Assembly: GCA_903877135.1 (NCBI GenBank)
Contig: CAIRCN010000006.1
Location: 62,001 to 126,000, forward strand
Reading direction: 5' to 3'
Origin: an uncultured Opitutia bacterium
Lineage (GTDB): Bacteria > Verrucomicrobiota > Verrucomicrobiia > Opitutales > Opitutaceae
Length of the DNA: 64,000 bases
Shown here: positions 198 through 41,886 of the stretch, piece by piece
Layout of the letters: each line of letters begins with the position of its first letter
How positions within the stretch are numbered: the stretch's first letter is position 1
Position numbers and translations under genes: made by a program
Notes under the pieces: model-generated
What the model was told of the DNA's origin: nothing
Database searches by the model: none
The model's input: the letters and a program-made list of their open reading frames with translations, nothing else

Positions 198-324
198 GAA
201 TTACATTTTCACAGCAGACTATGGCTGACGAGGACCATTTAATTTTCGCGTTTTTTCAAGCAGCAGACCGGAATGTCGCCCCGCGCCAATCAACAGAGCC
301 GTCGGGCACTATGAAATCCCCACG

Positions 325-1083
325 CTACCACGCCGTCCAGCCGCCGTCGACGCAGAGGGTGTGACAGTTGACCATCGCGGCTTCGTCGCTCGCGAGAAAC
401 GCCGCGGCGGCGGCCACGTGCTCCACCTCGGCCAGCCGGCCGCAGGGAATTTTGCCGAGCACAAACGCACGGAACTCCGGTTGCTGCAGCCGGTGCCGGG
501 TGAGGTTGGTTTCCACGAACGTCGGGGCGACCGAGTTGACCGTAAGGCCGTGCCGCGCCCACTCCACGCCGAGCGTGCGCACGAGCTGGATCACGGCGCC
601 CTTGGTCGAGCAGTAAACGGGCTGGCCGGGAATGCCGATCAGGCCCGACTGGCTCGACACCCAGATCACGCGGCCCCAATGCGCCGCGATCATCGCCGGC
701 GCCAGTTGCTGCGCGAGGAAGAATCCGCCGCGCACGTTGGTCTGGTAATGGTCCTCCCAGTTGGCGGCATCGACCTCGAGGCCGGGCGCGGGACGGTTGA
801 TGCCGGCGTTGTTGACGAGGATGTCTACGCGGCCCCAGCGGGCGAGTGCCGTGGCGGCGCCTTGCCGGATCTGTGCCAGATCGCGGACGTCGATCGCGAC
901 GGGCTCGGGTAAATCGCCGGTGGTCACGGCGCGCAACTGGCCGAGGCTTTCCTCCATCGGTTCGCCGGGCCGGTCGGAGAGAATCACCCGCGCGCCCTGC
1001 CGGGCCAGCGCGACGGCGATGCCCTGACCCAGACCAGTGGCGGAGCCGGTGACCAGTGCGGTTTTGCCGTCGAGGCGAAACAT
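325..1083 (-). CDS. Short-chain dehydrogenase/reductase (SDR)
   Basis: This 252-residue protein has all the marks of a classical NAD(P)-dependent SDR. It has the dinucleotide motif TGSATGLG (residues 12-19), NNAG (91-94), a catalytic Ser near 144 and the YxxxK pair Tyr157/Lys161. A hydrophobic C-terminal turn ends in CVDGGWTAW, as in 3-oxoacyl-ACP-reductase-like members. The ATG at 1083 follows the stop of the HisD-like gene by two bases, so the two are co-transcribed and probably translationally coupled. In described 2,3-dihydroxypropane-1-sulfonate (DHPS) degraders a HisD-family dehydrogenase (HpsN) is accompanied by an SDR (HpsO). That is the closest functional parallel I know, but the substrate here is inference. 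Confidence 0.9.
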   Translation of the reverse strand: MFRLDGKTALVTGSATGLGQGIAVALARQGARVILSDRPGEPMEESLGQLRAVTTGDLPEPVAIDVRDLAQIRQGAATALARWGRVDILVNNAGINRPAPGLEVDAANWEDHYQTNVRGGFFLAQQLAPAMIAAHWGRVIWVSSQSGLIGIPGQPVYCSTKGAVIQLVRTLGVEWARHGLTVNSVAPTFVETNLTRHRLQQPEFRAFVLGKIPCGRLAEVEHVAAAAAFLASDEAAMVNCHTLCVDGGWTAW

Positions 1084-24172: not shown

Positions 24173-24622
24173 TCAGGCGCAGCCGCAGTCGCTGATCGGA
24201 TCCACCAGCTCGCACAGTCGTTCGTAATACGCGTCTTCGGCGAGACCCAGCGCCGCGGCACCAAAGGTCACCGCATCGTCGCCCGAGGCAAACTCCCCGT
24301 AGTTCACGGCCACGAGCTGATAGAGCACGAGGAATGGCACTTCCGGCAGACGAGTCATGAAGAACGGATGGACGAACATCGTGAAACCGTCCTCGGGGTT
24401 CCCGCCCTTCGCCACGGGATGAGCAAACTCGCCGGGCTGTAGCGATTCCGCGTTGAACTCGATCGCACAGGGATAGCGCACGCAGGTGCGATCCTCGAGC
24501 ATGAGCTCCAGTTCGCTCCAACCGAGGTTCGGGCCGTATTTGGCGCGGATTTCCACGCCTTTGGCCGCCACATGGGCGTTCAAGGGAACCCGGACGTCAT
24601 CAGCGGTAAGTTGCTTGGGCAT
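24173..24622 (-). CDS. Unknown 149-residue protein at the end of NrfD module A
   Basis: This soluble protein has no signal peptide. It looks like a compact alpha/beta protein, with paired Leu/Glu-rich strands (GWSELELMLEDRTCVRYPC), a central Pro/Phe-rich piece (FVHPFFMTRLPEVPFL) and a Cys-containing end (DCGCA). I recognise no family. It follows the NrfD/cNMP gene by 42 bases on the same strand and has no counterpart in the paralogous operon at 36.9-39.9 kb. It may therefore be tied to the regulatory feature peculiar to module A. Confidence 0.65.
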   Translation of the reverse strand: MPKQLTADDVRVPLNAHVAAKGVEIRAKYGPNLGWSELELMLEDRTCVRYPCAIEFNAESLQPGEFAHPVAKGGNPEDGFTMFVHPFFMTRLPEVPFLVLYQLVAVNYGEFASGDDAVTFGAAALGLAEDAYYERLCELVDPISDCGCA

Positions 24623-24664: not shown

Positions 24665-26353
24665 TCAGATGGAGCCTTCGTTAGCCCGGGTGAGCCGCCC
24701 TTGGAGAATGGGCACCGTCATGCGCAGGAAAATGGTGTAGCACAGCAGCCCGAAGGCCCAGATGCCGAAACAGACCAGCGTCTCGTTGAGCGAGGGCGTG
24801 TATTCGATGATCGCGCCGAGTGGCGTGGGAATGAAACCGGGGATGACGAGGCCCATGCCCTTCTCGATCCAGATGCCGACGATGGCGAGAACGCAGGCGA
24901 GGTTGAGCCACTTCAGGCTGCGGCTGAGCGGGAGCAAGAGCAGCACCATGGCGACGATGTTGAGTGCGATGGCGCTCCAGATCCACGGCACGAGCGCGTG
25001 GTGGCCGTGCAGGCCGATAAAGAGGTATTTCGATGACGCGACGTGGAGGTTGCCGGAGTAGAATTCCTTGAACACCTCGTTCGCGAGCAGGAAGACGTTG
25101 ATGATCATCGAAACCTGAACGATGCCGCGCAGCGTGAGCAGGGCGTGGTCGGTGATCATGAGCCGCTCGGCCATGCGCGAACGGACGATCTGGTTCATCT
25201 CGCGGGTCTCCATCAGCACGCGCAGTGAATCGGCGTGCAGGCGCAGGATGAGCGAGTTTTCCTCGGCAATGGCGGTGGCCATGCGGGGCGAGCCGTGCAG
25301 CGCGGAAACTTCGCCGAACTGATCGCCGGGATTGGCGGTCCGGGTGATTCGCGCGCGATCGCCCTCGGCGCGTTTCACCACTACGCGGCCCTTCAGCACG
25401 AAAAAAGCATACGACGAATCGGTGCCCTGACGGAGCAGCACCTCGCCGGCAGACACTTCCACCACCGAGGCTGTGGCGAGCGCGCGCTGGCGGTCGGCGG
25501 AAGGGACCAAGGAGAGTTCCGGCAACCGGAGACTGAGTTGTTCGAGATCCTGGAGCGTTGCCGGTCGGCCCGGCCGGGCGCCGGCATCTGCGCCCTTGTC
25601 CAGTTCGGTCGCGGAACCGGAGGCGGTCACGCGGCGGACCACCTGAAGCGCGAGGATGATGAGCGCGGGACCGGCGGTGAAGGCGGAGGCGAGGAAGCGC
25701 GGCCCGACGATGGCGGAGTTCCAGAACGGCCGGCCGCCGAGGCCGACGTAGAGAAAGGCGGTGACGGTGTGAATCGAGACGGCCCACACGATGGCGATGA
25801 ACACGAAGGGAATGTAGAACCACTTGCTGGGCTTGATACCGCGGTAGCGGCAGTAAATCAGGTAGCCGCAGATGTGGACGTTGAGCAGCAGGTAGCCATT
25901 GAGCACAAGCACGTCCCAGCTCAGCATCGACGCCGGGAAGTTGAACTGGCCGATGCCCGGAATCAGATGCCAGAAGCGGTCTGGCCGGCCGAGATCGACC
26001 GTCACGAACATCAGGCACATGATGATAGCGGCGACGGCGAGCAGTTCGCCGAAGATCACCAGATCGTGCATCTCCTCGTTGTCGTAGATGTAAACGGGTA
26101 TGACCATCATGACGGCGGCGGCAGCCACGCCGACGAGGAAGGTGAAGTTGGCGATATAGACGCCCCACGAGACCTCGTCGCTCATGCCGGTGACGATCAG
26201 GCCGTGGGAAAACTGTTTGGCGTAGGCGTTGAGCCCGAACAGGGCCACGACCGTCAGCACGCCCATCCAGGTGTAGTAGCGCCAGTCTCCGACGAAGGCG
26301 ACTCGGGTGCAACGCCGGACGAAGACGAGGTAGTTGCGGGCGGCAGTGATCAT
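24665..26353 (-). CDS. NrfD/PsrC-family quinone-interacting membrane subunit with inserted cyclic-nucleotide-binding domain
   Basis: This 562-residue protein has about five membrane helices before residue 245 and about four after residue 403, with NrfD-like features in both parts (DLGRPDRFWHL near 120; INVFLLANEVFKEFY near 418). The two halves are split by a full cNMP-binding domain at about 278-395. Its phosphate-binding cassette is intact: FGEVSALHGSPRMATA, with Glu348 and Arg357 in the positions that hold the cyclic phosphate. NrfD proteins oxidise or reduce quinone and pass electrons to a periplasmic ferredoxin, here the gene upstream, which overlaps by four bases (ATGA). The insert lies after a positive RR pair and should face the cytoplasm. 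A normal NrfD is 300-420 residues. The fusion is visible directly; cAMP or c-di-nucleotide gating of electron flow is inference. Confidence 0.92.
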   Translation of the reverse strand: MITAARNYLVFVRRCTRVAFVGDWRYYTWMGVLTVVALFGLNAYAKQFSHGLIVTGMSDEVSWGVYIANFTFLVGVAAAAVMMVIPVYIYDNEEMHDLVIFGELLAVAAIIMCLMFVTVDLGRPDRFWHLIPGIGQFNFPASMLSWDVLVLNGYLLLNVHICGYLIYCRYRGIKPSKWFYIPFVFIAIVWAVSIHTVTAFLYVGLGGRPFWNSAIVGPRFLASAFTAGPALIILALQVVRRVTASGSATELDKGADAGARPGRPATLQDLEQLSLRLPELSLVPSADRQRALATASVVEVSAGEVLLRQGTDSSYAFFVLKGRVVVKRAEGDRARITRTANPGDQFGEVSALHGSPRMATAIAEENSLILRLHADSLRVLMETREMNQIVRSRMAERLMITDHALLTLRGIVQVSMIINVFLLANEVFKEFYSGNLHVASSKYLFIGLHGHHALVPWIWSAIALNIVAMVLLLLPLSRSLKWLNLACVLAIVGIWIEKGMGLVIPGFIPTPLGAIIEYTPSLNETLVCFGIWAFGLLCYTIFLRMTVPILQGRLTRANEGSI

Positions 26354-27300
26354 ACGTCGAAGTAGTAGTAGAAGCGCGGATTGGTCCCGACGTCCTCCTT
26401 GAGCTGCATGAAGACGCGCTTGGTGCGCAGAATCTGGGAAATCTCGCTATTGGGGTCGAGGACGTTGCCGAACTTGCGCGAACCTGTCGGGCAGACCTCA
26501 AGGCAGGCCGGGTAGCGGCCAGCGCGGGTGCGTTGAATGCAGAAATGGCATTTCTCCATCACGCCCTTCTTGCGCGGACGGTTGCCGAGGTAGGCCATCT
26601 CCGGATTGAGCCGGTCCGCGGGAATGGAGGGTTTAGTGAAGTTGAACCGGCGCGCCCAGTAGGGGCAGGCGGCCTCGCAATAGCGGCAGCCGATACACCA
26701 GTCATAGTCGATCACGGTGATGCCGTCAGTCTCCTGCCAGGTGGCGTGCACGGGGCAGACCTTCACGCAGGGCGGATTGTGGCATTGCTGGCACTGTACC
26801 GGCATGGTGAAGAAACCCTTCTCCGGAACCTGGTCTGGTGCGTAGTTGTGGTCGCTTTTCTCCAGATCGAAGGTGCCATGCGGCAGCTTCAGCACCCGGA
26901 TGTATTGAATCTCAGGGTTGCGTGACTGGTTGTTCTCGGCGACACAGGCATGCACGCATTTGCGGCAGCCGATACAGCGGGAGAGATTCAGCGCATAGGC
27001 AAACTCGACGCCGTCCAGCGGCTTCAGGTCGCGCACATGGGGGCGCACGCCGTATTGTTTTTCCACCTCGCGCTCGATGCGCTGCAGGACCTTCGCCATG
27101 TCCGCGGGCGTGAGTTCCTTATAGTATTTCTGCATGAATTGCTCGGCGGAGGGAATATCCTCCATCTCGAACAGCGGTTTGAGGCTGGCGGCGACCGCCG
27201 CCAGACCGGTGGCCAGCACGGCGGAGGTGCGCAGAAAGCTACGCCTGGTTGTGCCCGCATCGGGTGCCGCTTGCGGGTCGTGTGGTGCGGACAATGACAT
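26350..27300 (-). CDS. Tat-exported polyferredoxin electron-transfer subunit (module A)
   Basis: The 316-residue protein begins with a Tat signal (TTRRSFLRTSAVLATGLAA). An unusual spacer of about 70 residues follows before the Fe-S domain. Four cysteine clusters are present: CIGCRKCVHAC, CQQCHNPPCVKVC, CIGCRYCEAAC and CHFCIQRTRAGRYPAC with CPTG. This fits four 4Fe-4S clusters as in DsrO, HybA, PsrB and NrfC. It should sit in the periplasm between the NrfD subunit and the cytochromes encoded upstream. No molybdopterin catalytic subunit is encoded nearby, so the partner must be a cytochrome or an enzyme elsewhere. Confidence 0.93.
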   Translation of the reverse strand: MSLSAPHDPQAAPDAGTTRRSFLRTSAVLATGLAAVAASLKPLFEMEDIPSAEQFMQKYYKELTPADMAKVLQRIEREVEKQYGVRPHVRDLKPLDGVEFAYALNLSRCIGCRKCVHACVAENNQSRNPEIQYIRVLKLPHGTFDLEKSDHNYAPDQVPEKGFFTMPVQCQQCHNPPCVKVCPVHATWQETDGITVIDYDWCIGCRYCEAACPYWARRFNFTKPSIPADRLNPEMAYLGNRPRKKGVMEKCHFCIQRTRAGRYPACLEVCPTGSRKFGNVLDPNSEISQILRTKRVFMQLKEDVGTNPRFYYYFDV

Positions 27301-27301
27301 G

Positions 27302-27958
27302 TCAGTGGGTGGACGGGGATTCGGCTTCGGCTGCGCGGTCCGCCGTATCCGACGGATGCAGGGTATGCGGGCCTGGGGCCGGCTTGCGGCCGGGGAAGCG
27401 CGGCGAATGCGGGTTGTGGCAGTTCACACAATCCTTCTTCAGGGCCGGTCCGAGTTTGGTGTTCCAATAGCCGTTGGTGCGGCCATGCGCGCCGGAATCC
27501 CAGTCGCGGTAGGTCGGTCCGTGGCAGCTGCCGCACAGCTGCGTGCTGTTCTCCAGCTTCAGCTCGCGGCCGTCGCGCGGCTGCAGCGTCGTGAGGTTGT
27601 TTTCGTTGTGGCAGTTGAAACAGTTGTTGTTTCGGCCGTGCGAACCGTGCCCCATCACCACATCCGAATGCTCTGGGGGGACGATCAATTTCTGATTCTC
27701 GTCATACCGCAGCGGCGGCGGCTGCTTCTTGTCGTGGCAGCCGTAGCAATCGAAATCGGAGAGGTCCTCCTTGGCGCGGATCAGATCGGCGTAGGATCGC
27801 CGCACCGTGGCGGTGTCGAGGAGCGCCTTGTCCACGAGCGGGATCGCCGCGCGTGGCGGCGGATAGCCCCAGGAGTCGGAGTAGAATGCCGCCGCGAGGC
27901 CGACAAAGACCACCGCTAGCAGGGTGAGAACCAGCGGGGTCCGGTTGTTCGCGTGCAT
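27302..27958 (-). CDS. Membrane-anchored tetraheme cytochrome c (module A)
   Basis: The 218-residue protein has one N-terminal hydrophobic segment (residues about 8-25), probably an uncleaved anchor. Four CxxCH heme motifs follow: CYGCH, CFNCH, CGSCH and CVNCH. Extra His residues between them can act as distal ligands. The C-terminal 35 residues are Pro-rich and lack heme motifs. It is one base from the ferredoxin gene and 36 bases after the monoheme cytochrome gene. It probably relays electrons between the ferredoxin and soluble periplasmic carriers. Confidence 0.9.
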   Translation of the reverse strand: MHANNRTPLVLTLLAVVFVGLAAAFYSDSWGYPPPRAAIPLVDKALLDTATVRRSYADLIRAKEDLSDFDCYGCHDKKQPPPLRYDENQKLIVPPEHSDVVMGHGSHGRNNNCFNCHNENNLTTLQPRDGRELKLENSTQLCGSCHGPTYRDWDSGAHGRTNGYWNTKLGPALKKDCVNCHNPHSPRFPGRKPAPGPHTLHPSDTADRAAEAESPSTH

Positions 27959-27994: not shown

Positions 27995-28321
27995 TTACTT
28001 TTTGAGGGTGCGGAAATATTTCACCATCGCGGTGATGTCGGCATCCGACATTCCCTCGACAGCCTTCATGCGGACTTTGCCGTTCTTGTCCTTCGTGCCT
28101 TCCTTGAGGGCCTTGAAGGCCTCCTCGTCGGTGAAACTGGCCTGCACTTTGGCGTCGGTATAGTCCTTGATGCTGAGCTTCTTCCCCATCTTGGTGTCGC
28201 CGACGCCTTCCTTGCCGTGGCATTTGGCGCATTGTTCGCCCCAAGTGGCGGCGGCGTCGAACCCGTAGGCGGCGACGGAAAGGCTGGAGAGAGCGGCGAG
28301 CAGGAGGAGGGAGCGCTTCAT
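27995..28321 (-). CDS. Monoheme class I cytochrome c (module A)
   Basis: The start at ATG 28321 gives 108 residues with a cleavable signal peptide (MKRSLLLLAALSSLSVAAYG) and one heme motif, CAKCH. A Met-containing C-terminal helix (VRMKAVEGMSDADITAMV) offers the axial ligand. It is closely similar to the product of 36901-37227, sharing stretches such as TKMGKKL and IKDYTDAKVQA. It is the first gene of module A and is preceded by promoter copy 1. Confidence 0.93.
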   Translation of the reverse strand: MKRSLLLLAALSSLSVAAYGFDAAATWGEQCAKCHGKEGVGDTKMGKKLSIKDYTDAKVQASFTDEEAFKALKEGTKDKNGKVRMKAVEGMSDADITAMVKYFRTLKK

Positions 28322-28364
28322 GGTGGATTTTGGATTAAAGGATGGGGTTGATTTGACGCCGGGA

Positions 28365-28428
28365 AGCATCGCCGATTCTGAGCGAGCTCTCTACCTGCGC
28401 ATTGGCTAAATGTGCGCATATCTTGGCT
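28365..28428 (-). promoter_or_regulatory. Activator-type promoter element, copy 1 (upstream of module A)
   Basis: Read on the minus strand, a 26-base box (28426 down to 28401, CCAAGATATGCG...CCAAT) is followed after 7 bases by TAGAGA (28393-28388), then 17 bases, then GATGCT (28370-28365). The start codon of the monoheme cytochrome lies 43 bases further on. The same arrangement with the same spacings occurs at 36772 and 41696. The poor -35 and the conserved upstream box suggest an activator-dependent promoter. The activator is not known. Confidence 0.5.
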
Positions 28429-28524: not shown

Positions 28525-29904
28525 TTAAAACGCGATCCAAGCCTCGAAGTAGAGCGTGTTGTTGTTGCGGGCGTTGGCACCGGCGCCGTCGTAATTCAAC
28601 CGCGATCCGTCGAAGCGGTTGTAGATCGTGTATTGGACGGAGAATTTGACGTTGCTGCGCGACCAGGCCGAGGGGCCGCCGCTCTTGTTCAACGGGAGGT
28701 AGCTGGCTTGGAGCACAAAGCCATCGCTGGCGGGCGAGCCGGTCGCGCTGCCGCTGTAGAGCGCGGCGTCGCTCGACCCGTTGATCTCGAAATACTGGAC
28801 GGTGGCGCCGTAGGTCTTGTCGTAGAGGTAGCTCAGGGTGAGCTTCAGGTTGCGCAGGCTGTCGGAGGCATTGTCGGTGTTGCCGAGCGCCTCGCTGGCG
28901 GCCCAGTTCTGGCGCTCGTAAATCAGGGTGGCCATCGCCGTGAGATCGTGGGGGCCGCGCGAAAACTGATACTGCGTGTCGAACCCGTAGTCCACGATCC
29001 GGTCATGGCCCGCGCTCGAATCGCGGCCCGGATAAGTGTTGGCCGCCATACCGAAGGTGCCGAACTCCCAGCGCCCGTCGTCCGCCGGTTTGTCGTAGGC
29101 GAAGCGCCAGTAGGGCGCGAGGCCGGTGATCTGTGTCTGGCCCGCGGGATCGAGCCCGAGGGTTTTCTGAAGGTGCACGCCGAGGGTGCGGTAACCGCCG
29201 AGGTCAAAGTAGAATTTGTCGGCCACCATGGCATAAGCGCCGATGCCGCCGACCTGCTGGGAGACGCCGCCGTCGATCAGGGTGCCGGCGGCCGGCCCCG
29301 GAGCCAGCCCGGAACCCGAGAAGGGATAGCCCCACGCCGGCGCGGTGTTCCACGGATCCTGCATCGTTGGGTTGTTGTTCGCGTAGATACCGTAGGTCAC
29401 ATCCTTTTCGCCCACGGTGGCGGTGTCGGCGAAGCGCAACTCGGTGTTGTCCCAGGACCAATCCTTGCCGATGCCGTCATAGGTGGTCTGGCTGAAGATG
29501 CCGAACTTGTTCGCGATGACCGCACCCTCCTTGCCGAAGAGGTTCTCGGCAAACGGTCCGAACAGCCGGCCGGCGTAGAAGAGGCTCACTTGGGTGATGG
29601 CCCAGTTGTTGTTGTCGCCAAAGCCCGGCGCGGCGCCCCCGACCTGGGGTGCCTGAGTGTGGGTGAACGAGGGCATCAACATGACCGCGACCGGCGGGAG
29701 TTGCACCGGGTTGTCGCTGAGCGTGTAGCCACTCAGCTTGAACTGGCGACCAAACGCGTTGAGCAGCGGAAACTCGGTGTGGCAGTCCGTGCACTGCATG
29801 TTCATCTGGCGGGCGAAGCTCGGCAGCGCCCGGACGGTCGATGGGGCCAGCAGGGCCGCTGTCAGCAGCAGAGTGGCGACGGGGTTTTGTGAATAGATCT
29901 TCAT
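28525..29904 (-). CDS. Outer-membrane beta-barrel with N-terminal c-type heme motif (porin-cytochrome fusion)
   Basis: The start at ATG 29904 gives 459 residues. A signal peptide (about 1-26) is followed directly by LPSFARQMNMQCTDCHTEFP, which contains one CxxCH at Cys38-His42. The rest is barrel-like: alternating strands rich in Tyr, Gly, Asn and Trp, ending in FEAWIAF with a terminal Phe. Proteins with this FARQ...CxxCH...FGRQFKLxGY opening are known from several phyla but are poorly studied. A heme at the periplasmic mouth of a barrel would suit electron transfer across the outer membrane. It is the last gene of the bc operon, 31 bases after the hexaheme cytochrome. Confidence 0.85.
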   Translation of the reverse strand: MKIYSQNPVATLLLTAALLAPSTVRALPSFARQMNMQCTDCHTEFPLLNAFGRQFKLSGYTLSDNPVQLPPVAVMLMPSFTHTQAPQVGGAAPGFGDNNNWAITQVSLFYAGRLFGPFAENLFGKEGAVIANKFGIFSQTTYDGIGKDWSWDNTELRFADTATVGEKDVTYGIYANNNPTMQDPWNTAPAWGYPFSGSGLAPGPAAGTLIDGGVSQQVGGIGAYAMVADKFYFDLGGYRTLGVHLQKTLGLDPAGQTQITGLAPYWRFAYDKPADDGRWEFGTFGMAANTYPGRDSSAGHDRIVDYGFDTQYQFSRGPHDLTAMATLIYERQNWAASEALGNTDNASDSLRNLKLTLSYLYDKTYGATVQYFEINGSSDAALYSGSATGSPASDGFVLQASYLPLNKSGGPSAWSRSNVKFSVQYTIYNRFDGSRLNYDGAGANARNNNTLYFEAWIAF

Positions 29905-29935
29905 GGTGATAGAGGTGATTTTGGAGTAAGTAGGC

Positions 29936-31324
29936 TTAGAATCCGGCGTCCTCGCCCTTGGGCTTGAGGGTGAAGAGATAGGCGACAAGGTCGTCGATCT
30001 CGGCATCCTTGATGGTGTTGCCCCAGGCGGGCATGTAGAGCGGCGGAGCCGGGTGGTGCGGATCGAGCGCGACGATCTCGCGCTGGCCATTGACGATGAG
30101 TTTTTTCAGCTCGGGCTTGGTGTAGCCGTCGGCGACGTAGGTCAGGGCGGGCACCTGCTGGGCGGTCTTGGCGTTGGGATTGGGCACGCCGCCCTTGCCC
30201 TCTGGACCGTGGCAGCCGGCGCAGCCATATTTGCGGAAAACTTCTCGGCCGCGGACCGTCGGCTCCATCAACGCGGGAATGCTCAGGGAGACTTTCTGGT
30301 CGCGCAGGTGAACCAAAAACTCTGTCAGCGCACGCGCCTCGGCCTCGGTAAAGCCGAACCGCGGCATCACCGAACCGGGGCTGACCGACTGCGGGTCGCG
30401 GAAATGCTGCATCATCCACTCGGGCTTGCGCCGCAGACCGACATCGTCGAGCGCGGGCCCGATTTTGCCGCCCTGGCCGGCGACAGTGTGGCAGCCGATG
30501 CAGCCCTTCAACTGGAAGAGCCGTCGGCCTTCGCTGACGCTGGGCAGCACCTTCATCGAGCCGTAGAAACCGGGTAGGTTGGCGCCGGTCTGGCTCAGCA
30601 TGTAGAGGACAATCGCTTCGAGGTCGGGCTCTGCGAATTTCTGCGGCGGCATGCCGGAGCCGGGCGTGACCGTGGCGGGCGAGAGAAAATGCTGCTTCAG
30701 CCACTCGGGTGCGCGGCGGGCGCCGACGCGGTCAAGTTCTGGGCCGAGGTTGCCGCCGACGCCGCCGAGCTTATGGCAGCCGCGGCAGCCCACGGTCTCG
30801 AACAACTGGTTACCGCGCGCCAGCTCCGGCGCCGCCGGGTTGTCTGCGGCCTCGTGACACTGGCCGCAGGAGGCCTGGAGGTACTTGGTCGGCAGCATCG
30901 GCTCGTTCCAGAAGGGGACGTTGCCATGCGCGTCGGCGACGGTGGTGGCGCGGCCCTGGCCGCGGTGGCAGACGGTGCAGCCGAACTTGTCGAACGGGTG
31001 CTGGTCGTGCAGCGGATGGTAGGCGAGCGGCTGCGCGAAGTTGCCGTAGCTCGGGTCCTCGACCGCAAGGTGGCACGTCGTGCAGCGGTCCACGCGGTTG
31101 AGCTCGGGCAGGAGAATCTGGCGGATCTGCAGCGGGGTGTTCTGGGCGAGGAGCCGCTGATCGGGCGTGACCGCCCGGCGGATTTCCTCCTGGAGGAACT
31201 TTCGCTGGTATACCTTCCACGGGCGGTTCTCGTCGCGGTAGTAGCCGACGATGACGAGCACGCCGACCACCAGGCCGAGCAGGGTGAACCAGCCGTAGAA
31301 TTTGCGGAGCGAAAAGTCGTTCAT
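29936..31324 (-). CDS. Hexaheme cytochrome c of the bc-type complex
   Basis: This 462-residue protein is anchored by an N-terminal helix (residues about 9-29). Six heme motifs follow in order: CTTCH, CTVCH, CGQCH, CRGCH, CIGCH and CAGCH. The first three lie in a compact multiheme domain. The last three begin successive class I cytochrome c domains with Met-containing ends (SGMPPQKF, SVMPRFGF, LYMPAWGN). It follows the cytochrome b gene by one base, so it most likely replaces cytochrome c1 or f as the electron acceptor of the Rieske protein. Confidence 0.93.
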   Translation of the reverse strand: MNDFSLRKFYGWFTLLGLVVGVLVIVGYYRDENRPWKVYQRKFLQEEIRRAVTPDQRLLAQNTPLQIRQILLPELNRVDRCTTCHLAVEDPSYGNFAQPLAYHPLHDQHPFDKFGCTVCHRGQGRATTVADAHGNVPFWNEPMLPTKYLQASCGQCHEAADNPAAPELARGNQLFETVGCRGCHKLGGVGGNLGPELDRVGARRAPEWLKQHFLSPATVTPGSGMPPQKFAEPDLEAIVLYMLSQTGANLPGFYGSMKVLPSVSEGRRLFQLKGCIGCHTVAGQGGKIGPALDDVGLRRKPEWMMQHFRDPQSVSPGSVMPRFGFTEAEARALTEFLVHLRDQKVSLSIPALMEPTVRGREVFRKYGCAGCHGPEGKGGVPNPNAKTAQQVPALTYVADGYTKPELKKLIVNGQREIVALDPHHPAPPLYMPAWGNTIKDAEIDDLVAYLFTLKPKGEDAGF

Positions 31325-31325
31325 C

Positions 31326-32615
31326 TCAGTGGCCCTCCGTTATCGCCGGGGGCGGGCCCCACGGCTCGACCCAGCCCCAGTTCGGGCCACGGAACATCGT
31401 GCCGATGATCGTCAGCACGATGGCGACGATGAGGCACACGGTGAAAATGGTGTTGGCGACGGTGCGCTCGCGGGCGAACCAGCGCCCGACGCCCGCGCGG
31501 CCGCGGTCGATGTAGGGCAGCACGCCCAGCATGGTCACCAGCAGCGCCGGCACCACCACGCCGCCCCAGAACGCCGAGTAGCTGACGAGCTCCTGCAGTC
31601 CGAGGAAATACCACGGCGCCTTCGCCGGATTCGGCGGATGGATCGGGTTGGCGAACTCCTCCAGCGGCGCGTTCCAGAAAATTGCCAGGAACAGCACCAC
31701 CGCGATCACGAGCAAAAACAGCAGCAGTTCGCGGAACACCAGGTGCGGCCACGAAAACACTTCGTCGTCGGGATTCTTGCCGACCTGCGGCGTCGTGCCG
31801 CGCGCCAGCTCCATCAGGCCGTAGCTCTTGTTGGTCGGCAGCTGCGCCAGCGGAATCGACTCGACGCTGGTGTCATCGGCCTCGCCCGGCCGCGAGAGGC
31901 CGCCGTCCTTGCGCACGCGGAAGAGGTGGACTGAGATCATCAGGCCGGCGATCGCCGGCAGCACGATCACGTGGAGCGCGTAGAAGCGCGTCAGCGCGTC
32001 CTGCCCGACGACGTTGCCGCCGAGGAGGAGGTATTTGAGCTTGGGGCCGACGATCGGCGCATAGCCGGCGATGTTGGTGCCGACCGTGATCGCCCAGAAC
32101 GCGAGCTGGTCCCACGGCAACAGGTAACCGGTGAAGCTCAGCCCCAGCGTGATGAGAAACAGGCCAACGCCGATCACCCAGTTGAACTCACGGGGCCGCT
32201 TGTAGGCGCCGGTGTAAAACACGCGGCACATGTGCAGCATCACGAAGAGCACCATGAGGTGCGCTGCCCAGCGGTGCATGTTGCGCACCACCAGCCCGGC
32301 GGACACGACGAACTGCAGGTCCTTCATCACGTCGTAGGCCTGCGCCGTGCTCGGCACGTAGTAAAACATCAGCAGCACGCCCGTGCCGCACAGGATGAAA
32401 AACAGGTAGAGCGAGATCAGGCCCAAGCCCAGCGTGTAGGAGGCGCGCAACGCGTGCCGGCTGACCTTCGCCGGCTGCACGTGCAGCAGGAAACTGGAGA
32501 CCATCGCCTGCGAGCGCTCGAGGTTGCTCTGCGGCAGGCCGACCCTGAAAACCGAGCGGCCGACGCGCGTCTGCGCCAGCCAGAGCCAGAGGCGTTTGGG
32601 CAGGGGAGCGTTCAT
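31326..32615 (-). CDS. Cytochrome b (b6 plus subunit IV fused) of a menaquinol-type bc complex
   Basis: The 429-residue protein starts at ATG 32615, which overlaps the Rieske stop (ATGA). It has about eight helices. Heme-ligand His pairs are in [15 protein letters not shown] (13 residues between) and in the helix ending HLFRV, reached from ALHVIV (14 residues between). The 14-residue spacing is the b6-type pattern. The C-terminal part includes [15 protein letters not shown], the Qo-site region where many bc1 complexes have PEWY; the Glu is missing here, as in several low-potential quinol systems. It oxidises quinol and feeds the Rieske centre. Confidence 0.94.
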
Positions 32616-33085
32616 ATGACGAGATATTTGTCCGCGCTGACGTTCTGCCCCTTGTCCACCAAGAGCCGGTTGTCCTTGCTCAGTGCCACCAGATACCAGG
32701 TCAACGCCCGCGGCGCCGGGCCGCTTTCCACGCCGCCCTCGTCGTTGAACACGCTGCCGTGGCACGGGCAGTGGTAGCCCTTGCCGGCGCGGTTGACCGT
32801 GCAGCCCAGGTGGGTGCACACCGCCGAGAGGCAGCGGAAGGTATTGCCCTTGCGCACGAGGTAAACGCGTTCGTCCTCGAGAAACGTGATGGAGCCGTCG
32901 GGATAGTCGTCGGGCTTGCCCGCCTTGAAGCGCTGGCCTGGCTCGAAGAGCACGTTGGGCACGAGGAAGCGGACCGCGGCGGCCACGGTCGCCGTGGCGG
33001 CAAACGAGCCTGCGACCCAGCCCAGCGTGAGCTGGAAGAATCCGCGGCGGGTTACCCCATTGGGGTCAGAGGGAGGTAGGTTCAT
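32612..33085 (-). CDS. Rieske iron-sulfur protein
   Basis: The 157-residue protein has a Tat-type N-terminus ([16 protein letters not shown]) serving as signal anchor. The Rieske fold has both cluster-binding boxes, CTHLGC and CPCHGS, and the usual [10 protein letters not shown] turn. The bridging disulfide Cys residues are present. It is one base from the FAD/Fe-S oxidoreductase gene and overlaps cytochrome b. It is the high-potential acceptor in the bc complex encoded here. Confidence 0.95.
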
Positions 33086-33086
33086 G

Positions 33087-35009
33087 TCAGGCGGGAATAA
33101 GTTCGATGCGTTCCATGGTGATCGCCCCGGTGGGGCAGCGGACGGCGCACAGACCACAGCGGATGCAGCGGGTCTCGTCCTTGATGATGGCGCCCTGCTC
33201 GCCGGGCGCCGGAACATGGCCGTAGCGCGCCAGGTAGGCCGCCTGCAGTTTCTCGTCGCCGCGCAACCGCGCCACGTCCACGAGTCGCAGGCAATATTCT
33301 GGGCAGACGTCGGCGCAGCCGCCGCAGAGGATGCACTCGTCGCCGTTGAACACGGGGCCGACGTGGCATTTTAGGCAGCGGTCGGCTTGCATCCGCGCGG
33401 CAGGTTCCGGGTAATTTTTTTCCACTTCTGCAATCCCGATGCGCCGGTCCAGCGGCAACGTCGGCGGTGCCGCGCGGACCAGTTTCTCGTAATCGGGCTT
33501 CATCCGGTAGCGCGATGTTTCGTAAATCGTCACCCGCGCTTGCTGTGGCTCGGCGGGCACACGCCCGGTGAGAAACTTGGCGATCGAGCGTGCCGCGCGT
33601 TTGCCCTCGGCCACGGCGGTGATGATGATGCGCGGCCCGAAGGCCGCGTCGCCGCCGGCAAACACGTCGGGGCGCGAGGTCGCCAGCGTCACCGGGTCGG
33701 CTTGCAGCGTGCCGCGCGGCGTGGTCTTCAGGTTGTCTTCGGGGCGGATCCACGTGAGGTCCGGCGCCTGCCCGATGGCGAGCACCACGGTGTCGGCGTC
33801 CACGACTTCCTCGCTGCCCTCGACGAAGTGGGGGTTGAACCGGCGGTTTTCGTCGAAGACGCGGTCGGCCTTGATCAGCTCGATGCCGGTGACCTTGCCG
33901 TCGCGGCCGAGAATGCGTTTCGGGCCGTAGCGCGTGTGGAGGTGGATGCCCTCCTTCTCGGCCTCCTCGATCTCTTCGCGCGCGGCGGGAATCTCGTCGA
34001 GGCTTTCAAGGCAATACATGTGGACCTCGGGCACGCCCTTGCGGATCGCCTCGCGGGCCACGTCGAGCGCGAGCCGCACCTCGTCGGGAGCCTCGGCGTC
34101 CTTCGCGGTCAGCTCCTCGAGCACCGCGGCGGCGTGGTGCAGCGCCGTGCGCAGTTCAGTCTCGTTCATCCCGGCAAATTTCTCCGTCTGACGCACGACC
34201 GAGCGGGCGACGTCGAACGCGACGTTGCCGCCGCCGATGACCACGACCTTGCGGCCGAGCGTCACCTTGTAGCCGAGGTTGATGTTGAGCAGAAAATCGA
34301 TCGCGCGCAGTACGCCGTCGTTTTGCACACCCTCGATCGCCATCTCGCGGCTCTTGTGCGCGCCGATGCCGAGGAACACCGCCTCATAGCCCTGCGCCTT
34401 GAGATCGGCGAATGCGAAATCTTTGCCGAGCCGGGCGTTCAGCCGGATCTCGACGCCGAGCGACTCGATGGCGGCGATCTCCGCCCGGATGATTTCGCGC
34501 GGCAACCTGTATTCGGGAACGCCCAACACGAGCATGCCGCCTGAAAGATTTTGTGCCTCGAACACCGTCGGAGCGAAACCCATCAGCGCCAGCTCATGCG
34601 CGCAGGACAGACCGGCCGGGCCGCCACCGACGACCGCGACCTTGCGCCCGGCACCGGGCCGCTCGCGGCGTGCATCGTGCAATTCCGGATAGACCCGCCC
34701 AAGGTCGAACGCGTCCGACTCGACGCCGTAGCGTTCGCAGACAAACCGTTTCAGCGCCCGGATCGACACGGCGCCATCGAGCGCCCCGCGCCGGCATTTC
34801 GCCTCGCAGGGCGCGGCGCATACTCGTCCGCAGATCGACGCGAACGGATTGGGCGTGCGCGCGATGATATAGGCCTCCTCGTAACGACCCTCTGCGATAG
34901 CCTGCACATAGGCGCCGGAATCCGTGCGCACCGGGCAGCCCTCACGGCACAGCACCTGCCGGGCAAAATAGCCGGCATCGGGCAACTCGACGGAGTAGGT
35001 GGTCGGCAT
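33087..35009 (-). CDS. GltD-like FAD/NAD(P) oxidoreductase with N- and C-terminal Fe-S domains
   Basis: The start at ATG 35009 gives 640 residues. The N-terminal Fe-S domain has the GltD/dihydropyrimidine-dehydrogenase cysteine pattern (CREGCP, CGRVCAAPCEAKC). FAD motif VVGGGPAGLSCAHEL lies near residue 130 and NAD(P) motif VIGGGNVAFDVARS near 260. The C-terminal 80 residues add CILCGGCADVCPEYC and CIRCGLCAVRCPTG, two 4Fe-4S clusters. No signal peptide is present, so it is cytoplasmic. Its place inside a Rieske/cytochrome b operon is unusual. Similar NAD(P)-oxidoreductase subunits accompany Rieske/b complexes in the anammox bacterium Kuenenia. A link between NAD(P)H, quinone and cytochromes is inferred. 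Confidence 0.9.
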   Translation of the reverse strand: MPTTYSVELPDAGYFARQVLCREGCPVRTDSGAYVQAIAEGRYEEAYIIARTPNPFASICGRVCAAPCEAKCRRGALDGAVSIRALKRFVCERYGVESDAFDLGRVYPELHDARRERPGAGRKVAVVGGGPAGLSCAHELALMGFAPTVFEAQNLSGGMLVLGVPEYRLPREIIRAEIAAIESLGVEIRLNARLGKDFAFADLKAQGYEAVFLGIGAHKSREMAIEGVQNDGVLRAIDFLLNINLGYKVTLGRKVVVIGGGNVAFDVARSVVRQTEKFAGMNETELRTALHHAAAVLEELTAKDAEAPDEVRLALDVAREAIRKGVPEVHMYCLESLDEIPAAREEIEEAEKEGIHLHTRYGPKRILGRDGKVTGIELIKADRVFDENRRFNPHFVEGSEEVVDADTVVLAIGQAPDLTWIRPEDNLKTTPRGTLQADPVTLATSRPDVFAGGDAAFGPRIIITAVAEGKRAARSIAKFLTGRVPAEPQQARVTIYETSRYRMKPDYEKLVRAAPPTLPLDRRIGIAEVEKNYPEPAARMQADRCLKCHVGPVFNGDECILCGGCADVCPEYCLRLVDVARLRGDEKLQAAYLARYGHVPAPGEQGAIIKDETRCIRCGLCAVRCPTGAITMERIELIPA

Positions 35010-35038
35010 GGCAGTTGACGCCAACGCAAGCGCGCCGG

Positions 35039-35512
35039 TCACTTCTGCGGGTAGGCGGCGAGAATTTCCTTAATCTTGGCGTCGGTCTCGGCTTGTTCCT
35101 CGGGCGTCGCCTGGGCGAGTTTCGCGTCGAACAGCGCCTTCTTGCGCACCATGGAGTCGTAGGCGAGGAACTGGTAGATTTTTTTCGCGTTGGCGTCGCT
35201 GATCTTGGCGCCGGGTTTGTGCATCATACGCTTCACGTAGCGGGACCACTCGCCGGGCAGCGCGAAGTCGGAACTGATGGGGCGGGCAAGCGTGTGGCAC
35301 AGCACGCAGCGCTCGCGGAACACCTCGTAATTTTTCTGCAGGCCCGCCGGATAGGCGGAGACATCGATCTTCGTCGGACCCTTGTCGAACTCGGCGATCT
35401 TGGCCTTGGTGGCGGCGTCTATTTCTTCGGCGGCGCGAACCGCGGTGGTGCCGAGCAGGGCGAGCCCGGCCACGGCCAGAAACAGGGAGGAAAGAAGCGA
35501 GATCGATTTCAT
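35039..35512 (-). CDS. Periplasmic monoheme cytochrome c, first gene of the bc operon
   Basis: The 157-residue protein has a signal peptide ending near TTAVRAAEE. It has a single heme motif CVLCH, followed by GEWSRYVKRMMHKPG with candidate axial Met residues. The remainder is a helical, Lys- and Ala-rich tail (about 110-157). The region around the heme resembles small diheme-elbow-type cytochromes, but only one site is present. It opens the operon 29 bases before the oxidoreductase gene. No copy of the shared promoter box is visible upstream, so this operon may be controlled differently. Confidence 0.87.
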   Translation of the reverse strand: MKSISLLSSLFLAVAGLALLGTTAVRAAEEIDAATKAKIAEFDKGPTKIDVSAYPAGLQKNYEVFRERCVLCHTLARPISSDFALPGEWSRYVKRMMHKPGAKISDANAKKIYQFLAYDSMVRKKALFDAKLAQATPEEQAETDAKIKEILAAYPQK

Positions 35513-35663: not shown

Positions 35664-36554
35664 TCAACCCGGAAACGGCGCCCGCTGCGCGGCACGGTAA
35701 TCGGTCGGCGTCATGCCCACGTAGCGCTTGAACACGCTGTTGAAACGGGGAATGGAGCCGAAGCCCGCCGCATAGACGATCTCCGAGACACGGAGCGCGG
35801 GATCCACGAGCAGCGTCTTGGCTTTTTCTAGGCGCACGCGCGTCACGTATTCTGTCAGCGTCATGCCTGTGGCCCGCTTGAAAAGCTTGCAGAAGTAAAA
35901 CCGGCTCACCCGCACGTGCGCCACCACCTGCGCCAAGGCGATCGGCTCATCGACATGCGCCTGGATATACTCCTTCGCGCTGGCCACTGCTGGTGGTTCA
36001 TGGTCCGCCGCGGCGATGGTCTGGCGGCTGGCATAGTCGGACAAGAATTGCGCAAAAACATTCAGGAGTTGGATGATCGCCTCGAACCGCGCCGCATCCA
36101 CCACAGGCGTGCCGAAGTAAGACTGCCGCAGCCGTGCCTCCCAGTCTTTGCTCTGCCCGGGCGCCAGCATTTTCAGGATCATGGCAAAGTCGCGCTGGGT
36201 CGGTTCGCGGCGGAAAACCTGTCCGCTCATCAGCGTCGCCACATGTTGACCGTTGAGCATCACCGGCACTGCCACATCAGTCAGTCCGGCGAAGCAGTTG
36301 ACCTGCTGCGGCCCGCGTTGCCGCGCGACGCCGCGGTGGGCCCGCATCTCGGCTTCCAGGCAGGCGGCGCAACCCGTCGCCGTGCCAGTGGCGAGGGCAC
36401 AAAATTGGTTTTCGGCCTCCCCGAAACTGCGCCGTTGCTTCGGCTCTTCCGGTGGCACCACCTTGAGCACGACGCCGGTCGCCTTGCGAAAAGCTTCCTC
36501 GTAATACCGGATTACGGGCAGGCGCGCGATGTTGGTGTAATTTAGCTCGTTCAA
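35664..36554 (-). CDS. PocR-sensor AraC-family transcriptional regulator
   Basis: This 296-residue protein has an N-terminal PocR-type sensory domain (about 10-175). It is Cys-rich in the ligand or metal region: FCALATGTATGCAACLEAEM and VNCFAGLTDVAVPV. The AraC double HTH lies at about 190-290 (FYFCKLFKRATGMTLTEYV; VSEIVYAAGFGSIPRFNSVF). PocR domains sense small organic ligands, and the Cys residues leave room for a metal or redox input. It stands between the bc operon and module B, divergent from module B, and is the only regulator inside the respiratory island. It is the natural candidate to act on the shared promoter boxes. Confidence 0.9.
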   Translation of the reverse strand: MNELNYTNIARLPVIRYYEEAFRKATGVVLKVVPPEEPKQRRSFGEAENQFCALATGTATGCAACLEAEMRAHRGVARQRGPQQVNCFAGLTDVAVPVMLNGQHVATLMSGQVFRREPTQRDFAMILKMLAPGQSKDWEARLRQSYFGTPVVDAARFEAIIQLLNVFAQFLSDYASRQTIAAADHEPPAVASAKEYIQAHVDEPIALAQVVAHVRVSRFYFCKLFKRATGMTLTEYVTRVRLEKAKTLLVDPALRVSEIVYAAGFGSIPRFNSVFKRYVGMTPTDYRAAQRAPFPG

Positions 36555-37354: not shown

Positions 37355-37816
37355 ATGAATCACTTCAAAATGCCGCCGCAAATCGTCCGCCTAGTTTTGC
37401 TCACGCTGGTGGTTGTCGGCTCCTATGGTGTAGCCCGGCGGCTGCTGGTGCCGCCCTCGTTCGGCGAGTATGGCTGGTTCCGCGGAGCCGCGATCGCGGA
37501 GCTCGCTCAGACCAAACCGGTGCTTGCCGGCATGAAGTCTTGCGACGAATGCCACTCCGAGATCCTCCAGACGCTAGCCAAACACGACCACAAGACCTTG
37601 TCCTGCGAATCGTGCCATGGCGCCAGCCGCACACATGCCGACGATCCGGACACCAAGCCACCCAAGGTAAAGTTCGCCGACAGCGATTGCCTGCGCTGTC
37701 ATCAATCCAATTTCTCGCGGCCGGCGTGGTTCAAGCAGGTCGATCCCTACGAGCATTTTCGTGGCGACCATTGCACCGGTTGCCATATGCCGCACCAACC
37801 GAAGGACACGCCATGA
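37355..37816 (+). CDS. Membrane-anchored tetraheme cytochrome c (module B)
   Basis: The 153-residue protein has one N-terminal helix (about residues 11-25) and four heme motifs: CDECH, CESCH, CLRCH and CTGCH. It is shorter than the module A counterpart and has different spacing, so the two are functional analogues or distant relatives. Its stop overlaps the start of the ferredoxin gene (ATGA). The 127 bases between it and the monoheme gene show no feature. Confidence 0.9.
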   Translation: MNHFKMPPQIVRLVLLTLVVVGSYGVARRLLVPPSFGEYGWFRGAAIAELAQTKPVLAGMKSCDECHSEILQTLAKHDHKTLSCESCHGASRTHADDPDTKPPKVKFADSDCLRCHQSNFSRPAWFKQVDPYEHFRGDHCTGCHMPHQPKDTP

Positions 37817-38625
37817 ATTTCGTGATATCACGCCGCCGCATGCTCGGTGCCCTGGCTGGCGCACTGGGGTGGATTGCCTCCCAGCCAGTGGCCAAAGCCT
37901 CAAAAGCCACCGTGCAAAAGCTTCTGGCCGGGTCGCCCGCACCCAAGGGCTACGATCCCACCCAGCATAAGTGGCTCATGTGCATCGACGTCGACCGCTG
38001 CATCGGCTGCGGCTTGTGCGTCGATGCCTGCAAGACCGAGAACCACGTGCCCGAGGCGTCCAGTTTCTTCCGGACTTGGGTTGAGCGTTACATCATCAAG
38101 AAACCGGCCGACGGCGGCAACGACGTCCGCGGCGAGGTGCTGGTCGACTCACCGAATGGCGGTCGCGGCGGATTCCAGCCTTCGCTTGTGCCGCGCGAGG
38201 AGATCCTGCGCTCGTTTTTCGTCCCGAAGCTCTGCAACCTCTGCGAGCATTCGCCCTGCGCCCAGGCGTGCCCGGTCGGCGCCACGTTTGACAGTCCCGA
38301 CGGTGCCGTGCTGGTCGATCCCACCTATTGCATCGGCTGCGGTTTCTGCATCCAGGCCTGTCCCTACGGCTGCCGGTTCATGAACCCGCATACCAAGACA
38401 GCGGAAAAATGCTCGCTGTGCTACCACCGGATCACGCGGGGCCTCAAGCCAGCCTGCGTCGAAGTTTGCCCCGGCCATGCGCGCATTTTCGGCGACTTGA
38501 AAAACCCGGTCGAGAACGACCCGATTCAGGAATTCGTCCGCAAGAACAAGGTGTTCACCCTCAAACCGCACCTAGGCACCGATCCGCGTGTGCTCTACGC
38601 CAACATGGACAAGGAGGTCAGGTAA
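37813..38625 (+). CDS. Tat-exported polyferredoxin electron-transfer subunit (module B)
   Basis: The 270-residue protein starts at ATG 37813 and has a Tat signal (SRRRMLGALAGALGW). Four Cys clusters follow: CIGCGLCVDAC, CNLCEHSPCAQAC, CIGCGFCIQAC and CSLCYHRITRGLKPAC with CPGH. This is the NrfC/PsrB/DsrO-type four-cluster arrangement. It should stand between the NrfD subunit encoded next and the tetraheme cytochrome encoded just before. No catalytic molybdoenzyme gene is present. Confidence 0.93.
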   Translation: MNFVISRRRMLGALAGALGWIASQPVAKASKATVQKLLAGSPAPKGYDPTQHKWLMCIDVDRCIGCGLCVDACKTENHVPEASSFFRTWVERYIIKKPADGGNDVRGEVLVDSPNGGRGGFQPSLVPREEILRSFFVPKLCNLCEHSPCAQACPVGATFDSPDGAVLVDPTYCIGCGFCIQACPYGCRFMNPHTKTAEKCSLCYHRITRGLKPACVEVCPGHARIFGDLKNPVENDPIQEFVRKNKVFTLKPHLGTDPRVLYANMDKEVR

Positions 38626-38626
38626 C

Positions 38627-39871
38627 ATGGATCCCGCACTTACTCCCATTCTGGAAGCCGCTGGAGAAGCGCACCAGCTCGCGACGAGCATCGAAGGCTA
38701 CGTCTATCCCAACGAACAGAACCTCCTCTGGAGCGTGCTGATTGTCGTCTATCCCTATATCACCGGCCTCGTCGCAGGCGCGTTTATCATGGCCTCGCTG
38801 GTGCGCGTATTCAACGTGAAGGCGCTGACGCCGGTCTACCGCATGGCATTGCTTACCGCGCTGGGATTTCTCATCTGCGCGCCGCTGCCGCTGCTGTTTC
38901 ACCTCGGGCATCCCGAGCGGAGCTATCAGGTGATGATCACGCCCCACGTGTCCTCGCCGATGGCAATGTTTGGTTTTGTTTACGCCTGGTATATGATGGC
39001 GGTGCTACTGCTCGAACTATGGTGCGAATACCGCCGCGACTTGGTCGTCTGGTCCGTGCGCGAGCGCGGCCTCAAGGGCCTGCTGTATCGCGTGCTGACC
39101 CTCGGCGTGCGTGATCTTTCCCCGGCGGCGCTGCATCTCGATGAGCGCATGAGCAAGATTATCACGGTAATCGGTATTCCCTCGGCATTTCTCCTGCACG
39201 GGTATGTCGGCTTCATCTTCGGCTCCATCAAGGCCAACCCATGGTGGGGTAATGTGCTCATGCCGGTCATCTTCATCTTTTCGGCCGTGGTGTCAGGCAT
39301 CGCCCTGTGCGTCGTGCTTTACAAGGAGCTTTGCTGGTTCCGCCGCAAGGTCGTGGACGCCGCCTGCTATGACGACATGGGCAAGTTCCTGTTCTACGCG
39401 CTCCTCGTCGACTTCACGGTCGAAGGCCTCGACTGGCTCCACCGGCTCTATGCTGCTGAAGAATCCATTTTTGTCCTCAAGCAACTGGCGGGTGGGCGAC
39501 TCTTCAACACGCTTCTCGTCATCCAGCTTTGCCTCGGCACGCTGCTGCCGCTGGTGGCACTGGGCGCGACACAAATGGTGCCGGAGAAATTGCCCGTGTG
39601 GTTCCGACAACGCATCTACTACAACAGTGCTGTCCTTATCCTAGCTGGCGTGCTGGCCATGCGTTGGAACGTCGTCATCGGCGGCCAGCTCTTCTCGAAG
39701 AGCCTGCGTGGCTTCACCACCTTCAAACTGGGCCTCGCCGGCCAGGAAGGCTGGCTCCTAGCCGTCGGTCTGATCGTGCTGCCTTTCATCGTCCTCGGCG
39801 TGCTCATCTGGCTTTTTCTCCCGGACGACACCAAGGCCACGGAGACGGTGACCACGCCCGCGGCGGGCTGA
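38627..39871 (+). CDS. NrfD/PsrC-family quinone-interacting membrane subunit (module B)
   Basis: The start at ATG 38627 has a strong ribosome-binding site (AAGGAGG at 38611) and gives 414 residues. About ten helices are visible. Typical landmarks are the first periplasmic/Q-site segment LLWSVLIVVYPYITGLVAGAF, LFHLGHPERSYQVMITPH, and the paired late helices. Unlike the module A protein it has no cNMP domain; the corresponding loop is short. It ends in a charged Thr-rich tail. It should carry electrons between quinone and the ferredoxin. Confidence 0.93.
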   Translation: MDPALTPILEAAGEAHQLATSIEGYVYPNEQNLLWSVLIVVYPYITGLVAGAFIMASLVRVFNVKALTPVYRMALLTALGFLICAPLPLLFHLGHPERSYQVMITPHVSSPMAMFGFVYAWYMMAVLLLELWCEYRRDLVVWSVRERGLKGLLYRVLTLGVRDLSPAALHLDERMSKIITVIGIPSAFLLHGYVGFIFGSIKANPWWGNVLMPVIFIFSAVVSGIALCVVLYKELCWFRRKVVDAACYDDMGKFLFYALLVDFTVEGLDWLHRLYAAEESIFVLKQLAGGRLFNTLLVIQLCLGTLLPLVALGATQMVPEKLPVWFRQRIYYNSAVLILAGVLAMRWNVVIGGQLFSKSLRGFTTFKLGLAGQEGWLLAVGLIVLPFIVLGVLIWLFLPDDTKATETVTTPAAG

Positions 39872-41616: not shown

Positions 41617-41695
41617 CGGTCGACGTGAATGCGCGAAGGCAGACTCCAAGATGTGGGTAGAATTTTGCGCGGGGGTGGCGCTGACTGCACCGCCA

Positions 41696-41757
41696 AGTAT
41701 CGCGTGAAATGGCCGGATGAACTACCGTTGGATTGGCCGAAGCTCCGCATATCTTGG
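41696..41757 (-). promoter_or_regulatory. Activator-type promoter element, copy 3 (upstream of DUF2339 gene)
   Basis: On the minus strand the box (41757 down to 41732) reads CCAAGATATGCG...CCAAT, then 7 bases, TAGTTC (41724-41719), 17 bases, GATACT (41701-41696). The DUF2339 ATG is 80 bases further. The box also lies 130 bases upstream of the 13-heme gene on the other strand, so a shared activator site is possible. Spacings match copies 1 and 2 exactly. Confidence 0.5.
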
Positions 41758-41886
41758 CTTGACCTGAAACTCTTTCCCTCGCTCCCGCGCCTGGAGCCGA
41801 AACAGCAAGAAGTGCTCCGGTTTCGTCAAGGGATGCGAAGTCGAAAACGCCTGTCGGCCTATGATGTGGGAAGAGTAACTCCGACC

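Follow-up and report, generated by a model that had tools for sequence, protein, structure and literature searches.

Proteins of the NrfD superfamily have 8 to 10 membrane helices, which include two four-helix bundles, and bind quinone near the P-side of the membrane. In bacteria, cAMP is best known as a signal acting on gene expression. In cyclic-nucleotide-binding (CNB) domains, the Glu of the phosphate-binding cassette contacts the ribose and the Arg contacts the phosphate; FGE...PRxAT with invariant Glu and Arg constitutes the cyclic-nucleotide signature, and certain CNB folds of good sequence recognise a different ligand or no ligand at all.

Among the NrfD-like subunits already described, ActC of alternative complex III has both termini in the cytoplasm, PsrC is built without the two outermost helices, so that both of its ends lie outside, and ten helices are predicted for the DsrP proteins; the half of the ion path on the periplasmic side has been proposed to run through the second four-helix bundle (PMC8076601). 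In Verrucomicrobia, including Opitutus, gene clusters for a porin and multihaem cytochromes have been proposed as electron-export conduits (He et al. 2017, PMC5615132). In the part of that article drawn on here, the inner-membrane step is drawn only as "ET in IM", and the word "cyclic" is absent from its text.

The window considered here, a stretch of 64,000 nucleotides from an uncultured Opitutia bacterium, encodes a protein in which a CNB domain interrupts an NrfD-type membrane subunit. Many Verrucomicrobia bacteria have a respiratory membrane protein carrying a complete and conserved cAMP-type sensor, predicted to lie on its cytoplasmic side, an architecture that suggests direct switching of electron flow by a second messenger. 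A sequence-only reading of this DNA had remarked that such a mode of control was not known from described NrfD complexes. The open-access literature searched yielded no protein that combines NrfD or DsrP with a cyclic-nucleotide domain; the one match had the two in separate genes. If the interpretation is true, a cyclic-nucleotide sensor built into the quinone-handling subunit would allow a second messenger to set respiratory electron flow directly and fast.

Architecture of the DsrP-type Protein

The 562-residue protein matched the NrfD family (PF03916) at residues 54-245 (E 4e-37, 128.9 bits against a cut-off of 25.8) and the cNMP_binding family (PF00027) with an E of 1e-17 (64.2 bits, cut-off 27.5). 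The DsrP equivalog NF045798 gave 413.6 bits (cut-off 350) in two stretches, one on either side of the insert, and the insert-free protein of a related locus, L085, gave 424.7 bits. Because the score exceeds the cut-off, the protein can be assigned as a DsrP-type NrfD subunit. The initial description as "NrfD-type" therefore stood at the level of the superfamily, given the PF03916 match, and was narrowed to DsrP. The NrfD helices that it placed on both sides of a full cNMP domain were borne out by the Pfam matches and by the C-terminal NrfD half at residues 399-562, although the domain boundaries, set at about 278-395, were refined to an insert of about 244-398 containing a Pfam domain at 298-383. 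Glu348 and Arg357, claimed to form part of an intact cassette, both occur within FGEVSALHGSPRMAT, which is a canonical phosphate-binding cassette. In the membrane part, polar residues are invariant in the region near the P-side. The tight operon position likewise held, since the start codon of the NrfD gene and the stop codon of the upstream Fe-S gene share a 4-base overlap, ATGA. The features of the locus are collected in Table 1.

Table 1. Features of the locus and related loci (coordinates refer to the window unless a genome and contig are given)
Feature	Coordinates	Strand	Basis
DsrP-type NrfD membrane subunit with inserted CNB domain, 562 aa	24665..26353	(-)	single frame, Pfam, NCBIfam
NrfD part 1, residues 1-243	25625..26353	(-)	AlphaFold2 model, Pfam
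NrfD part 1 helices, residues 24-50, 59-89, 93-121, 144-171, 177-204, 218-243			AlphaFold2
Insert, residues about 244-398	25160..25624	(-)	alignment, DNA comparison; missing en bloc in at least 30 orthologues
cNMP_binding domain (Pfam match), residues 298-383	25205..25462	(-)	Pfam; PKG/PKA CNB fold match
Phosphate-binding cassette, residues 343-361	25271..25327	(-)	G343, F346, G347, E348, S350, R357 and A361 invariant in 51/51 inserts
NrfD part 2, residues 399-562 (C-terminal half of NrfD)	24668..25159	(-)	alignment, AlphaFold2 model, NCBIfam
NrfD part 2 helices, residues 402-432, 455-473, 480-498, 522-551			AlphaFold2
DsrO/NrfC-like Fe-S protein, twin-arginine motif RRSFLRTSAVL, partner of the NrfD protein	26350..27300	(-)	Pfam, NCBIfam, gene order, sequence
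Tetrahaem c-type cytochrome, four CXXCH, conserved partner	27302..27958	(-)	Pfam, gene order
Small monohaem cytochrome c, frequent partner	27995..28369	(-)	Pfam, gene order
149-aa protein, family not recognised, conserved next gene with and without insert	24173..24622	(-)	gene order, model
521-aa protein between cytochrome genes	28525-30090	(-)	
bc-type set and further redox genes	29936-35512	(-)	
AraC-type regulator	35664-36554	(-)	
Second Fe-S/NrfD pair, without insert	37540-39871	(+)	
830-aa fusion protein	41629-44121	(+)	
DsrA-like genes and separate insert-free DsrP	G016:C14:49585-57586		
DsrA-like genes and separate insert-free DsrP	G449:C21:26589-34602		

Predicted Structure and Membrane Side of the Insert

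An AlphaFold2 model based on 48 sequences (mean pLDDT 77.9, pTM 0.81) contained ten long helices, with the CNB domain located between the sixth and the seventh; in the numbering of the core this is the loop that joins helices 5 and 6, within the second four-helix bundle. When the whole model was compared with known structures by means of Foldseek, the best match for the membrane part was ActC (PDB 6btm_C and 6f0k_C). The insert alone matched the CNB domains of PKG and PKA, with a target TM-score up to 0.80 (PKG CNB-B) and about 2 angstrom rmsd, in keeping with the expectation that it folds as a cNMP domain; the sensor domain of DNR, a CRP/FNR-type protein with another ligand, was also matched. 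In the model, no more than about six residues separate the last CNB helix (384-395) from the membrane helix 402-432. The distribution of loop charges was in broad agreement with the assigned sides, as most Lys and Arg residues fell in loops assigned inside, both in the proteins with the insert and in those without it. The helix count, the published orientation of ActC and these charges together led to the prediction that the insert lies on the cytoplasmic and not on the periplasmic side, as the sequence-only reading had supposed.

An Insert That Comes and Goes

The relatives of the protein were taken from a single scan of genome contigs, in which the best 80 were listed and more exist. About 50 of these 80 carry an extra domain, some 155 residues long, at a single site of the alignment, and at least 30 have there a short loop, such as LQVIRRVTHYHITDKALL in L085. 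Comparison of the window with L085 showed that the DNA match stops at 25626 and restarts at 25156. The insert was thus recovered in more than 50 further Verrucomicrobia loci, where identical junctions, in more than 50 separate assemblies and at 67-84% identity, fall within one open frame each, and all 48 aligned full-length members match both Pfam families. Most homologues come from metagenome-assembled genomes, and two records titled Klebsiella and Proteobacteria are probably mislabelled. The homologue search covered Verrucomicrobiota, and the confinement of the insert to this phylum is what was seen there; in a phylum sample of 388 genomes, four had the insert and 12 had an insert-free relative. 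Searches centred on two other insert-bearing genomes found more carriers, in sets of relatives sharing no member with the window's own family, so the insert seems to span at least two lineages, the kinship of those genomes not being given. Three NrfD relatives were found in a plasmid collection, none spanning most of the query. The insert profile identified no free-standing CNB gene in the insert-free loci, which rules out that such a gene replaces the insert there.

Insert-free orthologues share up to 94% identity with the insert-bearing protein in the first half. Among the matches listed, the first half of the window protein was closest to that of the insert-free L085, and its insert was closest to that of another locus, L034. 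When the tree is built from the NrfD part by itself, the presence of the insert needs at least 11 state changes, five of them forced by well-supported branches, and on the tree of the neighbouring Fe-S protein it needs 17. These figures rule out a single gain followed by vertical descent. The inserts are similar to one another and homologous, and several clades of the flanking sequences reappear in the insert tree; a single ancient insert, followed by repeated loss or recombinational exchange, would explain this better than many separate acquisitions. That the complex endures while the module appears and disappears suggests a regulatory rather than a structural role, and so many changes of state point to a conditional benefit. 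As the insert-free orthologues occur in an identical gene order, the complex must work without the insert, which we propose to be an optional regulatory add-on. The existence of orthologues with and without the sensor, so alike in sequence and gene order, provides a natural control: the effect of the domain can be tested by comparing such pairs or by swapping one loop.

The Gene Cluster and the Probable Path of Electrons

The order cytochrome c, tetrahaem cytochrome c, Fe-S protein, NrfD protein and 149-aa protein is unchanged with or without the insert. The 149-aa protein, whose gene follows that of NrfD in most loci, has no Pfam or NCBIfam family and, in spite of a confident model (pLDDT 89), no PDB structure match; it has no obvious signal peptide, and a Cys/Gly-rich tail ends many of its homologues. 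The twin-arginine motif of the Fe-S partner indicates that the electron-accepting side is periplasmic. In around one third of the loci, a figure limited by the length of the flanks, genes for an MtrA/DmsE-like multihaem cytochrome and for a large barrel-like protein are found nearby. The former gave 160-194 bits with the DmsE and GSU2203 models, under their cut-offs, and the latter had no family match and can be called MtrB-like by position and sequence character only. The likely pathway, which the sequence-only reading had not named, is a quinol-to-multihaem-c module, often in a porin-cytochrome setting. By proximity only, the tetrahaem c/Fe-S/NrfD module is a candidate for the inner-membrane step of the scheme of He et al. 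(PMC5615132).

Several other genes of the window deserve mention. Upstream, also on the minus strand, are genes for a bc-type set (cytochrome b and Rieske protein), a cytochrome c with tandem domains, a GltD-like flavoprotein that has ferredoxin domains, and a further cytochrome c; L052 is the only related locus with the same set near the module. The 521-aa protein, whose gene lies between those of the cytochromes, matches no Pfam or NCBIfam family and has, by sequence character only, the look of an outer-membrane barrel. The first gene of the run encodes the AraC-type regulator, which has a PocR sensory domain and may regulate the run. The 830-aa fusion joins a multihaem cytochrome to a cytochrome-b561-type membrane domain, and relatives of this fusion and of the second Fe-S/NrfD pair recur near the insert-bearing module elsewhere.

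The assignment to DsrP raises the matter of sulfur metabolism. No DsrM or DsrK was detected by Pfam among the ten genes up to 35512, and the window's genome had no match to dsrA, on which ground sulfite or sulfate respiration was rejected. Two relatives of the window's organism, G016 and G449, have DsrA-like genes (below the family cut-off), a hint of dissimilatory sulfite metabolism in the group; within a few kilobases on that contig, each also encodes a DsrP without the insert, distinct from its copy of the module studied. The insert-bearing gene is not the DsrAB-linked DsrP.

Conservation of the Cassette and Possible Supply of the Ligand

The Glu/Arg pair expected of a ligand-binding domain is kept in every insert scored, Glu348 and Arg357 being invariant in 51 of 51 inserts whose mean pairwise identity is 58%. 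Invariant positions are concentrated in the cassette (7 of 19, versus 10 of 113 elsewhere in the insert; P 0.003). Arg335 and Arg338, just before the cassette (window 25340-25351), are invariant in the 51 sequences as well and may represent a family-specific contact with the ligand, the membrane or another loop. The insert is under purifying selection, weaker than that on the membrane part (median dN/dS about 0.33 vs. about 0.11, rough values because synonymous sites are near saturation). In a PDB profile search, the insert family matched chains of protein kinase G, PKA-R and Epac.

A class III cyclase was present in every one of the 32 insert-bearing genomes tested and in 27 of the 33 different genomes with an insert-free protein, three pairs of entries with identical matches having been counted once each; the excess has a one-sided Fisher P of 0.013, uncorrected for kinship. 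Because many insert-free relatives have cyclases too, finding them counts as weak evidence. Four class III cyclase matches occur in the window's genome; the strongest, on the same contig, is a receiver-cyclase protein whose best match is adenylate cyclase type 5. In class III cyclases, a Lys and an Asp select ATP, and this protein has both residues at these positions, as adenylate-type enzymes do.

Proposed Mechanism and Alternative Interpretations

The observations can be integrated in a model in which the membrane subunit would be the quinone-binding, and probably ion-conducting, part of a DsrP-type module. Electrons would pass from quinol through NrfD/DsrP to the periplasmic Fe-S protein, the tetrahaem cytochrome and cytochrome c, a path that in many relatives perhaps ends in a porin-multihaem outer-membrane conduit. 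Cellular cAMP, made by class III adenylate cyclases, would bind the cassette of the PKA/PKG-type CNB domain, and the final CNB helix, only a few residues away from the membrane helix that follows, would close. This closing would shift the second four-helix bundle and thereby raise or lower quinol oxidation and ion passage. That the insert binds a cyclic nucleotide is very probable, and cAMP is the likely ligand; a direct action of the ligand on quinone or ion handling is favoured with less assurance, and the same holds for the integrated view in which the insert serves as an optional gate, operated by cAMP, on the transfer of electrons from quinol to cytochrome. The allosteric effect, its sign and the direction of electron flow are what we infer. 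The wider idea, in which respiratory complexes of Verrucomicrobiota have quinol oxidation and ion translocation, and possibly electron export, gated directly and reversibly by cAMP without transcription, is tentative, its chances falling slightly short of even.

A different, and rather unlikely, role for a bound cyclic nucleotide would be docking or localisation, the insert recruiting a cytoplasmic partner or setting the assembly or turnover of the complex while turnover at the quinone site remains unchanged. The CNB domains of PKA regulatory subunits work, in fact, through partner release, and the 149-aa protein encoded next door, conserved, of unrecognised family and with no obvious signal peptide, could be thought of as such a partner. 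However, this neighbour is equally conserved without the insert and so is not a specific partner, and the tying of the CNB domain into the membrane bundle at both ends, with its last helix running straight into a membrane helix, favours direct coupling. Less probable still is that the cAMP-like pocket senses another ligand (a cyclic dinucleotide, haem or a metabolite) and gates the complex accordingly: CRP/FNR-type relatives with other ligands, such as the DNR sensor domain, match the fold, and cAMP binding does not account for the invariant Arg335 and Arg338, but the FGE...PRxAT motif keeps its Glu and Arg without exception and, by sequence, the domain is matched best by those of PKA, PKG and Epac.

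The absence of the insert from many orthologues and its faster evolution relative to the membrane part would suit a structural relic, folded and tolerated but no longer sensing anything; this is very improbable, given that conservation within the insert is highest at the ligand contacts, which are constant in all 51 sequences. As to a joining of two genes by assembly or annotation, an artefact against which the sequence-only reading had already argued, the metagenomic origin of most homologues might invite the suspicion, yet the same junctions in more than 50 homologues from separate assemblies, in single open frames, rule it out for practical purposes. The optional cAMP gate is, accordingly, the reading that we prefer.

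Comparison with Known Systems

The protein resembles the DsrP of DsrMKJOP (NF045798) in its score over the cut-off, its ten predicted helices and its DsrO-like Fe-S and small multihaem c partners, and differs from it in the CNB domain and in having no adjoining DsrM, DsrK or DsrAB gene. ActC is the best structural match to the membrane part and shares the ten helices, the quinol site and the two four-helix bundles; it has, in contrast, no inserted soluble domain, and its partners are others, no ActB-type large subunit being encoded in the window's operon. NrfBCD-type quinol-to-cytochrome modules display the same order of multihaem c, Fe-S and NrfD genes, but the window protein reaches only 27 bits with the NrfD equivalog (cut-off 347.6) and has the CNB insert. 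With PKA-R, PKG, Epac and the SthK and MlotiK1 channels it has in common the CNB fold and cassette and, in the case of the channels, the control of membrane helices by a CNB domain; there, however, the domain is found at the end of a channel or in a soluble regulator, whereas here it lies between two helices of a respiratory subunit. Finally, the Verrucomicrobia porin-multihaem clusters (PMC5615132) belong to the same phylum, and multihaem c and outer-membrane barrel genes stand beside the module in about one third of the loci.
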